From contig JANQHG010000154.1 in assembly GCA_028277115.1 (NCBI GenBank), positions 1 to 33,640 of the forward strand: a DNA stretch of 33,640 nt, read 5' to 3'. Of the stretch, positions 6,790 to 33,640 are shown one piece after another. The number at the start of each line of letters is the position of its first letter. Position 1 is the stretch's first letter. The notes under the pieces were generated by a model. The model saw only the letters and a list, made by a program, of their open reading frames with translations, searched no databases and was not told the DNA's origin. Made by a program: the position numbers and the translations under genes. The DNA is from Azospirillaceae bacterium (GTDB lineage: Bacteria > Pseudomonadota > Alphaproteobacteria > Azospirillales > Azospirillaceae).

Positions 6790-7406
6790 AGGCGACGGTG
6801 CGCAACCTCGACAACGAGGAGGTCGGGGAGATCGAGCTCGACGACGGCGTGTTCGGCGTGCCGGTCAGGGGCGATCTCCTGAAACGCACGGTCGATTGGC
6901 AACTGGCCAAGCGCCGGGCGGGCACGCACAAGACCAAGGGGGTCAGCGAGATCAGCGGCACCGGCAAGAAGCCGTACCGGCAAAAGGGCACCGGCCGGGC
7001 GCGCCAGGGCTCGTTGCGCTCGGCGCAGTTCCGCACCGGTGCGACGATCTTCGGCCCGGTGGTGCGCAGCCACGCCCACGACCTGCCGAAGAAGGTCCGC
7101 AAGCTCGCGCTCAAGAGCGCGCTCGCCGCCAAGCAGGCCGACGGCAAGCTGATCGTGCTCGACGCCGCGGTTGCCGAGACCCACAAGACCAAGGCGCTGG
7201 CGGCCAAACTCGAGCGGTTCGAGGTCGCCTCGGCGCTGGTGATCGCCGAGGCCAAGCCGGACGTCAACTTCGTGCGCGCGGCGCGCAACCTGCCCAAGGT
7301 CGACGTGCTGCCCGAGGTCGGTGCCAATGTCTATGACATCTTGCGTCGCGACACCCTGTTCGTGACCCGTGGCGCGGTCGAGCGTTTGGAGGCGCGGCTC
7401 AAATGA
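6786..7406 (+). CDS. rplD: 50S ribosomal protein L4
   Basis: A 206-aa protein with a GTG start overlapping the rplC stop. The long rRNA-binding loop that lines the exit tunnel is visible at about residues 58-92 ([20 protein letters not shown] and following). In enterobacteria L4 also represses its own S10 operon through the leader; whether that applies here is not visible. The C-terminal part ([20 protein letters not shown]) matches the globular domain that contacts 23S rRNA. The stop overlaps the rplW start by four bases (ATGA). Confidence 0.97.
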
Positions 7407-29766: not shown

Positions 29767-31941
29767 CTACGACGGTCCGTCCGTGATCAGCCGGGTCGAA
29801 CGACGAAAGGTCAAATACGCCCACGCCCAGTTGAGCAGCACGACCAACCGATTGCGCACCCCGGCCAAAAACAGCACATGGACCAAACCCCAAAACCACC
29901 AGGCAAGCGCGCCCCGAAGCCGAACCCGCCCGATCTCCGCAACCGCGGCCTGACGCCCGATCGTCGCGAGATTGCCGGCGTGGCGATACCGGAACGGCGG
30001 CGGCGCCGGCTGGCCGAGCAGACGCCGGTGGATCTCCTTGGCGGCATAGGCGCCGGCCTGCTTGGCCGCGGGCGCGATCCCCGGCACCGGCGTGCCGTCG
30101 CGACCGAGAATCTGCGCGGTGTCGCCGACCACGAACACCGACGGCTGCCCCGGCACCGTCAGGTCGGGCGCAACCATCACCCGGCCGGCCGGGTCGTGCG
30201 CCGCACCAAGCCATTTCTGCGCCGGGGACGCGATCACCCCGGCGGCCCACACCACCGTGCGCGCCGCCACCCGGGTCGCGCCGATGCGGACGCCGCCGGC
30301 ATCGACCTCCTGAACCCGGTGGCCGAGCACCACCTCGACCCCCAGCGCCTCGAGCGCGCGCAGGGTCTCCGTGGACGACGCGGGCGACAACGCCGGCAGC
30401 AGCCGCGGCCCCGCCTGGACCAGGATCACCCGCGCCGCGGCCGGATCGACGTGGCGGAACTCGTCAACCAGCCCGTGATGGGCGAGCTCGGCGATCGCGC
30501 CGGCAAGCTCGACCCCGGTCGGGCCGCCGCCGACCACGACGAAGGTCAACCAAGCTGCGCGCTCGTCCGGGTCGGCGGTGTCTTCGGCATGTTCGAACGC
30601 AACCAGGATGCGCCTGCGGATCTCGGTCGCGTCTTCGATCTTCTTCAACCCCGGCGCCAGCGTCTCCCACTCGTCGCGGCCGAAATAGCTGTGGCGTGCC
30701 CCGGTCGCCAGGATCAAAAAATCGTAGCCAAGCCGCTCGTCGCGCAGCCGGACCGTGCGCGCGTCAAGATCGACTCCGGTGACCCGCCCGAGCCGGACCC
30801 GGACATTGGCCTGGTCGCGGAACATCTCGCGGATCGGCCAGGCGATCTCGGACGCCGACAGGGCGGCGGTCGCGACCTGGTAGAGCAGCGGCTGGAACAG
30901 GTGATAGTTGTGGCGGTCGACCAGGGTGATCCGGCACGGGCTGTGGTGGAGCGCGCGGGCGGCGGCCGCCCCGGCGAAGCCGGCGCTGACGATCACGACA
31001 TGGGCGAGACCTTGGTCGTTCCATCGCGCACCGTCGATCAACGCCGGCGCATGCGCGGCGAGCCGCCGGCCGAGCCAGGCGTCGAGCGACAGCGCGCCGG
31101 GTCCCCGCAACAGCGGGATCACCAACAGGGCGAGCCAATAGGCATGCACCGGCTCGTGGCGCACCAGGGTCTCGATCACGATCGTCATCGTGACCAGCGG
31201 CACCGCGGCGACCCGAGTGAACAACCCGGCCGCGAGCAGCGGCGCGCACACCAACTCGACCGCGGCCGCCAGCCCGGCGGCCAGCGGCGGCGCCAACAGC
31301 GGCAGCCGATACTGCTCGCGGAACAGCGCGACCGCGTGGTCGAAGTTGGCGAGCTTGCCGACCCCCTCGGCAAAGAACAGGCCGGCGATCCCGAACCGGA
31401 ACGCGAAGAGGGCGAGCGGCCCGCCCCAGCGGCTGAGCCACGCCGCCGCGCCTTGGAGCGAGCCGACCAGCGGCAGCGCGATCCAGCGCGTGCCGCGGCC
31501 GAGCGCGGCATCGACCGAGATCGGCCCGGCGCCCGACACCCAATACCAGCCGAGCAGGACCGACGCATAAAGCTGGACCGACGGGTCGACGACCGAGGCC
31601 GAAGCGACCGCGATCAGCGCGGTCAGACCGGCGGCGGCGGCCCGGGTCGCCGCGCCGACCGCGAGCAGGACCCCGCCGACCAGCTCGACCGCCAACCATG
31701 CCGCCGGCACCGGTCCGCGGGTGCCGGTCAGCGTGGCGAGCCCGACCGAGACCACAAGCTGGGCGAGCCACAGCCGGCACACCAAGTCGAACAGCGGCCA
31801 CAGGCTGCGCCGGGTCAGCCGTTGGCCGTCGCGCCACGCCGCGATCCACGGGGCGAAGCGATAGAGTCGGCCGTCGATCGGCCGCGCGGTCGACGCCGGG
31901 ACGGCACCGGGGCTCGTGGGGCTGTCGGGCGGCCCGTCCAA
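29767..31941 (-). CDS. Double DoxX - type II NADH dehydrogenase fusion
   Basis: 724 aa if started at TTG 31941, the only plausible start after the preceding gene; upstream starts would lie inside that gene. Residues ~45-155 and ~172-290 each look like a four-helix DoxX membrane domain. From ~312 the protein is a flavin NADH:quinone oxidoreductase (NDH-2): FAD-binding HVVIVSAGFAGAAAARAL, YHLFQPLLYQVATA, LILATGARHSYFG, NAD-binding FVVVGGGPTGVELAGAIAEL (GGGPTG at 471-476), VFVVGDTAQ, and a C-terminal membrane-anchor stretch (WWFWGLVHVLFLAGVRNR). The first Gly of the FAD motif is Ser. It would oxidise NADH and reduce membrane quinone. Relation of the DoxX part to substrate or anchoring is inference. 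It follows two small membrane-protein genes. Confidence 0.85.
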   Translation of the reverse strand: MDGPPDSPTSPGAVPASTARPIDGRLYRFAPWIAAWRDGQRLTRRSLWPLFDLVCRLWLAQLVVSVGLATLTGTRGPVPAAWLAVELVGGVLLAVGAATRAAAAGLTALIAVASASVVDPSVQLYASVLLGWYWVSGAGPISVDAALGRGTRWIALPLVGSLQGAAAWLSRWGGPLALFAFRFGIAGLFFAEGVGKLANFDHAVALFREQYRLPLLAPPLAAGLAAAVELVCAPLLAAGLFTRVAAVPLVTMTIVIETLVRHEPVHAYWLALLVIPLLRGPGALSLDAWLGRRLAAHAPALIDGARWNDQGLAHVVIVSAGFAGAAAARALHHSPCRITLVDRHNYHLFQPLLYQVATAALSASEIAWPIREMFRDQANVRVRLGRVTGVDLDARTVRLRDERLGYDFLILATGARHSYFGRDEWETLAPGLKKIEDATEIRRRILVAFEHAEDTADPDERAAWLTFVVVGGGPTGVELAGAIAELAHHGLVDEFRHVDPAAARVILVQAGPRLLPALSPASSTETLRALEALGVEVVLGHRVQEVDAGGVRIGATRVAARTVVWAAGVIASPAQKWLGAAHDPAGRVMVAPDLTVPGQPSVFVVGDTAQILGRDGTPVPGIAPAAKQAGAYAAKEIHRRLLGQPAPPPFRYRHAGNLATIGRQAAVAEIGRVRLRGALAWWFWGLVHVLFLAGVRNRLVVLLNWAWAYLTFRRSTRLITDGPS

Positions 31942-31955
31942 CGGCGGCCCGTTCT

Positions 31956-32315
31956 TTAGGACCCGCCGGGCACGAGCGCGGCGACCGTCGCGCCGGCCCG
32001 TTCGCCGATCGAATAGACCGCGCCGGCGATGATGCCGAAGAAGCACATATAGCTCATCCGGGTCGCGAGCGCGTAGGTGGCGGTCATCCAGCCTTCGAAG
32101 ATCACCCAATCGAACACCGGTGAATAGCCGACCATCAGCGCGCCCAGGGCGGCGCCGCCGAGGCAGCCGAAGAACGCGGCGTTGTTGTCGATCCATGGCG
32201 CCTGATCGGCCGGCGCGGCGGCGGCCGGCGGCTCGGCGCGCGCCGGGCCGATGCCGGTCGGCAAGACCGCCAGAAGCCCGGCGATCAGGACGGTGAGCAG
32301 GGCGGCGCGGCTCAC
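31956..32315 (-). CDS. Small secreted/membrane protein B, paralog of the upstream gene
   Basis: 119 aa from GTG 32315, which overlaps the stop of the upstream gene by four bases (GTGA). The signal peptide (SRAALLTVLIAGLLAVLPTG) ends near ARA (25-27). The mature part has two or three hydrophobic helices with WIDNNAAFFGCLGGAALGAL and YMCFFGIIAGAVYSIGE. Cys51 and Cys91 are exactly 40 residues apart, as in the upstream paralog (Cys62, Cys102). A 65-residue ungapped alignment of the two gives about 20 identities. The DoxX-NDH-2 fusion gene follows about 14 bases later. Family not recognised. Confidence 0.8.
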   Translation of the reverse strand: MSRAALLTVLIAGLLAVLPTGIGPARAEPPAAAAPADQAPWIDNNAAFFGCLGGAALGALMVGYSPVFDWVIFEGWMTATYALATRMSYMCFFGIIAGAVYSIGERAGATVAALVPGGS

Positions 32316-32701
32316 AGCAGCCCGTCGCCGCCGGTGATCATCTCGAGCGTCGAGTCCGCGGCCGAGGTCACGACCCCGCCGATCAGCCCGAAGTAGCAGC
32401 CGAGCAGGCTGCGCCACACCAGAATGCCGATCGACAACAGCGCGCCGGCATCCTTGGCCCATTTCCACAACGGGTAGGTCGCGACGGTGAACGAGCCGGC
32501 GGCGATCCCGATCCCGCAGCCGGCGAGCACCATGCCGGGGTCGATGAACGGGTCTTGGGCGGTCGGTGTTGCGAATCCATCTGATGGACCTTGAGCATAC
32601 GCGCTCGACCCGCGGCCGGCCATCGGCGCCGCCAAGACGAGCGCGACGGCGATCAAGGTAACGGCACCCCGGCATTTGGCCCGACTGATGGCCGATTTCA
32701 T
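32312..32701 (-). CDS. Small secreted/membrane protein A, first gene of the DoxX-NDH-2 operon
   Basis: 129 aa from ATG 32701, preceded on the minus strand by GGGAAAAG. The signal peptide (RGAVTLIAVALVLAAPMAG) has a probable cleavage after AYA (34-36). The mature protein contains FIDPGMVLAGCGIGIAAGSF and SLLGCYFGLIGGVVTSAADS with an intervening helix around WKWAKDAGALLSIGILVW. Cys62 and Cys102 match Cys51 and Cys91 of the next gene. In-frame starts further upstream (to 32860) add a part without signal-peptide character. Not recognised; glycine-zipper-like helices suggest a membrane-embedded oligomer. Confidence 0.8.
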   Translation of the reverse strand: MKSAISRAKCRGAVTLIAVALVLAAPMAGRGSSAYAQGPSDGFATPTAQDPFIDPGMVLAGCGIGIAAGSFTVATYPLWKWAKDAGALLSIGILVWRSLLGCYFGLIGGVVTSAADSTLEMITGGDGLL

Positions 32702-33000: not shown

Positions 33001-33052
33001 CCCCGCGGGCCCAAAGGGGGTAACCCCTGGTCGGAGGGTGCCCCCTTGACCT
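33001..33052 (-). repeat. G/C-run hairpin repeat (family B, copy 3, inverted and partial)
   Basis: On the minus strand the sequence reads CCGACCAGGGGTTACCCCCT (around 33034-33015), one base different from the core of copies 1 and 2 in the loop. The 3' module is absent. It abuts the start of the ~288-base direct repeat, which itself starts inside this core (GGTCGGAGGGTGCCCCC). Confidence 0.6.
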
Positions 33053-33315
33053 TGGAGGCAAAGCCACCAAAACCTCGCGAACGGGTGTCGGCTTCTTGTC
33101 TCATGCCAAATCCGGTTGAACCATTCCGTTTGGTCGGAGCACCGCCGGTAGGTCGGGGCGCGGGCGCCCCCTGGTTGATCGGGAGCGCCCTGTCCCAGGC
33201 CCGCGCCCCGATATCGACGGTGCCGCAAAGCTGAACCGCCGATGTTGGGGCGATCGGCCCCCACCGGCGATGCAAACAGGCAAACCGTGCCGGCCGATCG
33301 CCCCAACCTACAGAT
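33029..33315 (+). repeat. ~288-bp tandem repeat unit, copy 1
   Basis: The unit runs from GGTCGGAGGGTGCCCC to CCAACCTACAGAT. It is nearly identical to 33353-33640, differing at about ten positions. The copies are separated by 37 bases, giving a period of about 324. The right half of the unit is a family A double hairpin (33148-33311). Confidence 0.85.
33148..33311 (+). repeat. REP/BIME-like double-hairpin element (family A, copy 2)
   Basis: GTAG head at 33148-33151. Stem 1: 33153-33165 with 33199-33211 (13 bp). Stem 2: 33244-33259 with 33292-33307 (16 bp). It closes with CTAC (33308-33311), so each end carries an outward-reading GTAG head, as in paired inverted REPs. Loops differ from copy 1 in the spc operon. 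Confidence 0.8.
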
Positions 33316-33352: not shown

Positions 33353-33640
33353 GGTCGGAGGGTGCCCCCCTTGACCTTGGAGGCGAAGCCACCAAAACCT
33401 CGCGAACGGGCGTCGGCTTCTTGTCTCATACCAAATCCGGTTGAACCATTCCGTTTGGTCGGAGCACCGCCGGTAGGTCGGGGCGCGGGCACACCCTGGT
33501 TGATCGGGAGCGCCCTGTCCCAGGCCCGCGCCCCGACATCGACGGTGCCGCAAAGCTGAACCGCCGATGTTGGGGCGATCGGCCCCCACCGGCGATACAA
33601 ACAGGCAAACCGTGCCGGCCGATCGCCCCAACCTACAGAT
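33353..33640 (+). repeat. ~288-bp tandem repeat unit, copy 2 (reaches window end)
   Basis: Second copy of the unit at 33029-33315. It begins with the same GGTCGGAGGGTGCCCC (one extra C) and ends at the last base of the window at the same CAGAT, so further copies may lie beyond the edge. Confidence 0.85.
33473..33636 (+). repeat. REP/BIME-like double-hairpin element (family A, copy 3)
   Basis: GTAG head at 33473-33476 and closing CTAC at 33633-33636, with the same two stems as copy 2 and only a few substitutions, mostly in the loop of hairpin 1 and between the hairpins. It arose with the tandem duplication of the surrounding unit. Confidence 0.8.

Follow-up and report, generated by a model that had tools for sequence, protein, structure and literature searches.

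Two small, overlapping genes of an Azospirillaceae bacterium raise the question of what kind of membrane protein they encode, and of why both predicted products carry two cysteines at matching positions. The genes lie in a stretch of 33,640 nt (contig JANQHG010000154.1), which as a whole is called the window below. The first-pass annotation had read them, from the sequence, as tandem paralogs of no recognised family, and had argued from the exact spacing of the cysteines that these residues matter.

The tandem gene pair

The GTG start of gene 2 overlaps the stop codon of gene 1 by 4 nt (Table 1), and a promoter and terminator scan gave no signal exceeding that of shuffles. Aligned without gaps at an offset of 11, the two proteins share 24 identities over 73 residues, with 22 in the best 65-residue stretch (about 20 in 65 had been noted at first reading), and Cys62 and Cys102 of gene 1 fall opposite Cys51 and Cys91 of gene 2, as the first-pass annotation had placed them. 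The alignment scores 101, which none of 4,000 shuffles reached: the best score was 57 among 2,000 whole-sequence shuffles of the mature gene 2 protein and 58 among 2,000 shuffles within 12-residue blocks, which preserve the hydrophobic pattern. An alignment no better than that of shuffled membrane proteins had been named as a possible refutation; the observed one exceeds them all, and the tandem-paralog observation is confirmed. Both frames match the family profile described below (gene 1, E 4.8e-21; gene 2, E 6.0e-19), for which they also served as seeds, and gene 1 as the sole query recovers gene 2 from their genome at 7.8e-7.

Table 1. Positions in the window of the gene pair, of its predicted parts and of the adjoining gene
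Feature	Position	Strand	Description and basis
Gene 1	32312-32701	minus	open frame, ATG start; 129-aa precursor with predicted signal peptide and predicted two-helix Gly-zipper hairpin
Gene 2	31956-32315	minus	GTG start; 119-aa precursor, paralog of gene 1
Gene 1, probable signal peptide	32591..32701	minus	residues 1-37, cleavage after AYAQ; read by eye
Gene 1, predicted helix 1	32483..32539	minus	residues 55-73, with Cys62; AlphaFold2 H18-36 of mature protein, pLDDT ~66-68; hydropathy
Gene 1, predicted helix 2	32333..32443	minus	residues 87-123, with Cys102; AlphaFold2 H50-86 of mature protein, pLDDT ~53-70
Cys62 codon, gene 1 helix 1	32516..32518	minus	Cys in 66/66 collected members
Cys102 codon, gene 1 helix 2	32396..32398	minus	Cys in 66/66 collected members
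Cys51 codon, gene 2 helix 1	32163..32165	minus	aligned with Cys62
Cys91 codon, gene 2 helix 2	32043..32045	minus	aligned with Cys102
Context gene directly downstream of gene 2	29767..31959	minus	PF07681, PF07992, PF22366; frame as searched, start provisional

Distribution and age of the family

In its own genome, gene 1 by itself matches three additional places (E 8e-8 to 2e-6). A six-copy profile recovers those six copies there, and a broadened profile adds two more. The eight paralogs of this genome stand as two pairs (one of them in the window), a three-gene cluster and a single gene next to murJ. Among relatives, an initial search gave matches in 7 of 59 genomes; across the order, the broadened profile (E up to 0.01) matched 14 of 82 genomes, representing 4 of 13 genera (the source genome is included in both counts). 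The 14 comprise seven multi-copy genomes and seven genomes of genus g11 with one to three copies, and at least four named records among the matches listed are Azospirillaceae or Rhodospirillales MAGs.

An iterated profile run over the fetched regions collected 66 members, the core identity of which to gene 1 goes down to 10-20%. This set does not include the two C159 members of the source genome, two weak own-genome matches (E 0.07 and 0.38) or L126 and L127, which matched weakly in the order-level search and were not kept by the iterated profile. Beyond the order, three class samples (385, 376, and 385 genomes) and a phylum sample (388 genomes) were searched, each including the source genome together with a few members of its family or class; up to 15 candidates were scored per genome, so that weak members may escape. 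These samples yielded 17 matches outside family f1 (E 5.7e-5 to 0.0092), which were rejected because, judged by eye, they resemble fragments of other reading frames (ABC permease, MFS, and similar), and they yielded no accepted member outside the order. Viral contigs gave 159 pattern matches with no relative among them, plasmids gave no match to the one stretch from genome G080 used as query, and matches to a degenerate DNA pattern of the motif were not above the reversed control.

Nor do the profile libraries name the family. The window proteins have one match in Pfam (12.8 bits; cut-off, 21) and one in NCBIfam (6.8 bits; cut-off, 27.7). A Pfam scan of 40 members gave nothing convincing (best E 0.013, to Oleosin, in one member): 22 families were matched at E up to 1, the most frequent being Melittin (5 of 40 members, best E 0.02), and presumably none of the 22 belongs to clan CL0500, to which we return below. 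The PHROGs scan of the members (best E 0.0033, in one member) and the search of PDB sequences (two chains of one complement receptor, E ~0.1 over 20 positions) were equally unconvincing, and literature searches gave no recognised description of the family. A VirB2-like pilin was considered and rejected, as it is absent from the profile matches and no secretion genes were recognised in the neighbour tables. The initial impression that no known family fits is thus upheld for Pfam, NCBIfam, PHROGs and PDB sequences. The family is lineage-restricted, so far seen only in this bacterium's order, and undescribed as far as these searches show.

A local tandem duplication was considered and rejected, because counterparts of the pair occur in other genera. 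A tree of 68 cores, built on 74 columns and with many of its forks unresolved, places gene 1 with the first gene of the G008 cluster (100/98) and gene 2 with the second (83/85), and the core of gene 1 is 64% identical to its counterpart in L041, from another genus. Five genomes of genus g6 have a corresponding pair in matching order; their second genes may be orthologs of gene 2. With neighbourhoods and tree read together, the order within the tandem pair is kept in all seven multi-copy genomes. Since the pair stands in matching order in two other genera, the duplication is old and widespread rather than local, and the pair probably predates these genera. Between two g6 genomes (L051 and L055), the gene-1 type has a dN/dS of 0.09 and the gene-2 type one of 0.15, and with values this low the pair looks like real genes under purifying selection.

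Cysteines, glycine zipper and predicted topology

All 66 collected members have a cysteine in both of their hydrophobic helices, and the two C159 members of the source genome, counted from the printed letters, also show the pair at a distance of 40. Homologs lacking the pair would have counted against the first-pass reading; no member without it was collected, although the profile seeds bore cysteines, which biases the collection toward such members, and the related rows do not amount to 66 independent events. The exact spacing seen in the window does not extend to the whole family: the distance is 40 residues in 54 of 66 members and otherwise 41 (four members), 39 (three), 36 (two), 35 (two), or 42 (one); an alignment of 40 members puts the length variation in the stretch between the helices. 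Glycine stands three positions after the first cysteine in 65 of 66 members, directly before the second in 65, and three positions after the second in 63. The Gly-Cys dipeptide was rejected as a lipobox, because the first cysteine is not directly preceded by a long hydrophobic stretch.

From 14 residues before the first cysteine through the stop, the 66 members contain no other cysteine in ~5,590 residues, where ~59 would be expected at the average of 1.05% in the predicted proteins of the window and regions L038-L066 (exported proteins may generally have fewer). Because both cysteines persist in every member down to 10-20% core identity, with no other cysteine in the counted region, they very probably matter, and this part of the first-pass argument stands. 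A small-x3-Gly-x3-small pattern surrounds the cysteine of helix 1 in 46 of 66 members, and Gly-x3-Gly-x3-small occurs in helix 2 in 53. Some C-40-C spacing is found in three of 131 other small predicted proteins, and the fuller motif C-x2-G-x30-38-G-C-x2-G is found in 61 of 66 members and in none of the 361 other proteins predicted in those regions. Gly/Ala-rich membrane segments easily look alike, but a chance resemblance between two composition-biased proteins is excluded as far as the shuffles, the motif counts and a tree that puts each gene with a counterpart from another genus can exclude it.

A hydrophobic start followed by an AxA-like site is present in 61 of 66 members by a crude rule (not a signal-peptide program); five fail the rule, among them L042, which seemingly has a membrane anchor instead. 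From four residues before the first cysteine to thirteen after the second, charges are few, no column exceeding 8 of 66 members, with the single exception of an Arg or Lys five residues before the second cysteine (19 of 66). The members are probably exported proteins of the inner membrane. AlphaFold2 was run on 11 sequences. In its low-confidence models of the two window proteins (mean pLDDT 61.5 and 68.8), a first helix is followed by a short and then a long one. Counted from the centre of the turn, the cysteines of the first model lie at ~18 and 22 residues, those of the second at ~19 and 21. Given these matched distances, a hairpin would set both cysteines at a similar depth in the membrane.

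Neighbouring genes, a proposed assembly and its alternatives

The family occurs in several kinds of neighbourhood. The pair of genus g6 adjoins glnD in L046, L051, and L059 (by clustering; Pfam for L046) and pyrD in L044, L051, and L055 (by clustering; Pfam for L044). The three-gene cluster of G008 is flanked by glnD and murJ, a single small frame separating glnD from its first member; this arrangement of a three-gene cluster in a glnD–murJ housekeeping block is that of L041 (3892-10251). The three-gene cluster of the source genome (L038, 9601-12242) lies beside a phasin-like gene (PF09361), as does its G008 counterpart (L040, 6519-9178; by clustering).

One class of members lies on the same strand just downstream of a gene for TMEM43 (PF07787) in five of five g6 genomes. 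Human TMEM43 is a heart disease gene, the role of which is debated. Ten TMEM43 genes were found, six adjoined by a family member and four with none nearby; that of the source genome, which lies near a contig end, is among the four. The adjoining members are those of L049, L054, L058, L061, and L064, and the L066 member is divergent from a second TMEM43 gene. Another class lies on the same strand just upstream of a gene for an FAD oxidoreductase (PF01266) in five of five g6 genomes (L056 by clustering only). In L062, an EAL-domain gene (PF00563; 5668-6879, plus strand) overlaps the predicted start of a member (6876-7334, plus strand) by 4 nt, and the L050 member adjoins a related gene. The neighbourhood tables hold no neighbour common to all classes and suggest no shared task, and literature searches on TMEM43 and on Romo1/Mgr2 gave no bacterial lead. 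The window ends in two direct copies of a 275-nt stretch (33041-33315 and 33366-33640; 97% identical, spaced 325 nt, reaching the contig end), perhaps an interspersed repeat that broke the assembly.

Taken together, the sequences suggest an undescribed group of exported glycine-zipper proteins that form disulfide-stapled two-helix hairpins in the inner membrane, with gene 1 and gene 2 supplying two subunits of a hetero-oligomer, a reading that we give an even chance of being right. The precursor would be exported by Sec and its signal peptide removed, which would leave the N terminus in the periplasm. The mature part would insert as a two-helix hairpin with both ends periplasmic, and the turn, ~20 residues from each cysteine, would bring both cysteines to similar depth on facing helices. 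Periplasmic DsbA/DsbB would then link the two by a single intramolecular disulfide, stapling the hairpin. Hairpins would pack against one another by their glycine faces, and both proteins of the operon would join in a heteromeric inner-membrane assembly, the role of which, as a guess, is structural or gating. The gene for DsbB (PF02600) is present in all seven multi-copy genomes.

Alternatively, both thiols might stay reduced and jointly bind a metal ion, heme or a membrane redox centre. The gene directly downstream of the pair fuses DoxX and an NDH-2-like FAD/NADH oxidoreductase in one reading frame, and electrons from its product could pass over such a centre; this fits two cysteines in all members at similar distances from the turn, and the class upstream of the PF01266 oxidoreductase gene points the same way. 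However, no His, Met, Asp or Glu is conserved beside the cysteines in the 66 members (the commonest such residue is an acidic one, six positions before the first cysteine, in 27 of 66), the other regions fetched first contain no protein similar to the DoxX–NDH-2 fusion, and an oxidising periplasm with DsbB favours a disulfide, all of which makes reduced thiols unlikely. Tandem paralogs with aligned cysteines, and zipper faces that suit oligomers, would also be consistent with intermolecular disulfides, by which one hairpin is bonded to its neighbour (gene 1 to gene 2) and not helix to helix within itself; where a genome has a single copy, that member could form homo-oligomers. Of the 66 members, 37 have a family neighbour on the same strand within 900 nt and 29 have none, and the matched distances between cysteines and turn suit an internal bond, which needs no partner; we therefore consider bonds between hairpins decidedly unlikely.

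The small paired glycine-zipper proteins CdzC and CdzD of Caulobacter, likewise an alphaproteobacterium, suggest a third possibility, namely a pair of secreted, bacteriocin-like proteins that insert into the membranes of rivals; pore-forming proteins are indeed on the Foldseek list, none of them significant. The Cdz proteins are encoded with type I secretion genes in the same cluster (PMC5380434), whereas the window family has a Sec-type start in most members (by the crude rule above). No type I secretion gene or other exporter gene was recognised by eye among up to four neighbours on each side (first 50 residues of each). The family also differs from Cdz in its cysteines, present in all collected members, and in its housekeeping neighbourhoods (glnD, murJ, and a class I tRNA synthetase gene), which are partly in conserved order. 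A bacteriocin function is therefore very improbable. The published search for Cdz-like systems filtered out zippers interrupted by cysteine (PMC5380434), and so would not have listed such proteins. GxxxGxxxG in short membrane proteins is shared with the glycine-zipper Pfam clan CL0500 (PMC5072337), from which the window family differs by its paired cysteines.

Returning to the stapled hairpin, a comparison with mitochondria suggests itself. Disulfide-stabilised glycine-zipper hairpins are known mainly from mitochondrial protein import. Tim17/Tim22/Tim23 and Romo1/Mgr2 are likewise Gly-rich helix hairpins, and Tim17 family members have their N terminus on the intermembrane-space side, the equivalent of the periplasm, as the window family would. 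An intramolecular disulfide is described as stabilising the complexes of both Tim17 and Tim22 (PMC4893733). The window family differs in its predicted bacterial signal peptide and in having the cysteines inside the zipper. The Tim17 family is held to be exclusive to eukaryotes, and bacterial zipper matches to Tim17 profiles are known, with scores that fall once the zipper is masked (PMC5072337).

Homology to these proteins was examined and is not supported by Pfam, profile–profile or motif tests. PF02466 and PF10247, which we take to be the accessions for Tim17/Tim22/Tim23 and Romo1, do not appear among the 22 families of the Pfam scan of 40 members (E up to 1). The PRAT motif, given in PMC5072337 as (G/A)X2(F/Y)X10RX3DX6(G/A/S)GX3G, occurs in none of the 66 members and does match the human TIMM17A control. 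With hhalign, Tim17/22/23 scored 14.0 (probability 0.79%; best of 60 column shuffles, 19.0) and both groups together 13.8 (0.71%; best shuffle, 14.8), although Romo1/Mgr2 scored 15.8 (3.2%), above all 60 column shuffles (best, 13.4); the target profiles are small (5, 2, and 7 sequences) and the matches span 13-16 columns. Because the sequence tests fail, the family is not filed with Tim17 or Romo1.

Structure comparison gave no significant match. For the first model, the best Foldseek match has E 1.1, and chains of the TIM23 complex follow at E 2.7 and 6.6 (Z 4.0 and 5.9). For the second model, yeast Mgr2 (9j9b_D) is first of 20 matches (probability 0.75, E 1.6), with Z 6.2 and an rmsd of 3.4 over 65 residues, tied with unrelated chains. 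A Tim17 query matches by sequence 5lc5_Y (NDUFA11, E 0.0034) and 9f5x_e (E 0.074), and both recur lower in the second-model comparison (Z 4.9 and 5.1), where unrelated helical chains score alike. Disulfide-stabilised Tim17/Tim22 is the nearest working analogy, and the family may work in a similar way. That the hairpins are bacterial cousins of the Romo1/Tim17 hairpin that have survived, or re-invented it independently, and form a periplasm-side, cysteine-stapled gate or insertase-like complex, is a long shot; if true, a bacterial relative sharing Tim17 topology and staple would bear on how the mitochondrial protein import channel arose.

The family, with eight copies in one genome and no convincing match in the profile libraries, offers a testable signature, C-x2-G ... 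G-C-x2-G with a spacing mostly of 40. It will be of interest to membrane-protein specialists, the general surprise being modest until a function or a deeper relationship is shown. With several bacterial paralogs, one class of which is linked to TMEM43, it provides a small system for the study of such staples and perhaps of bacterial TMEM43.
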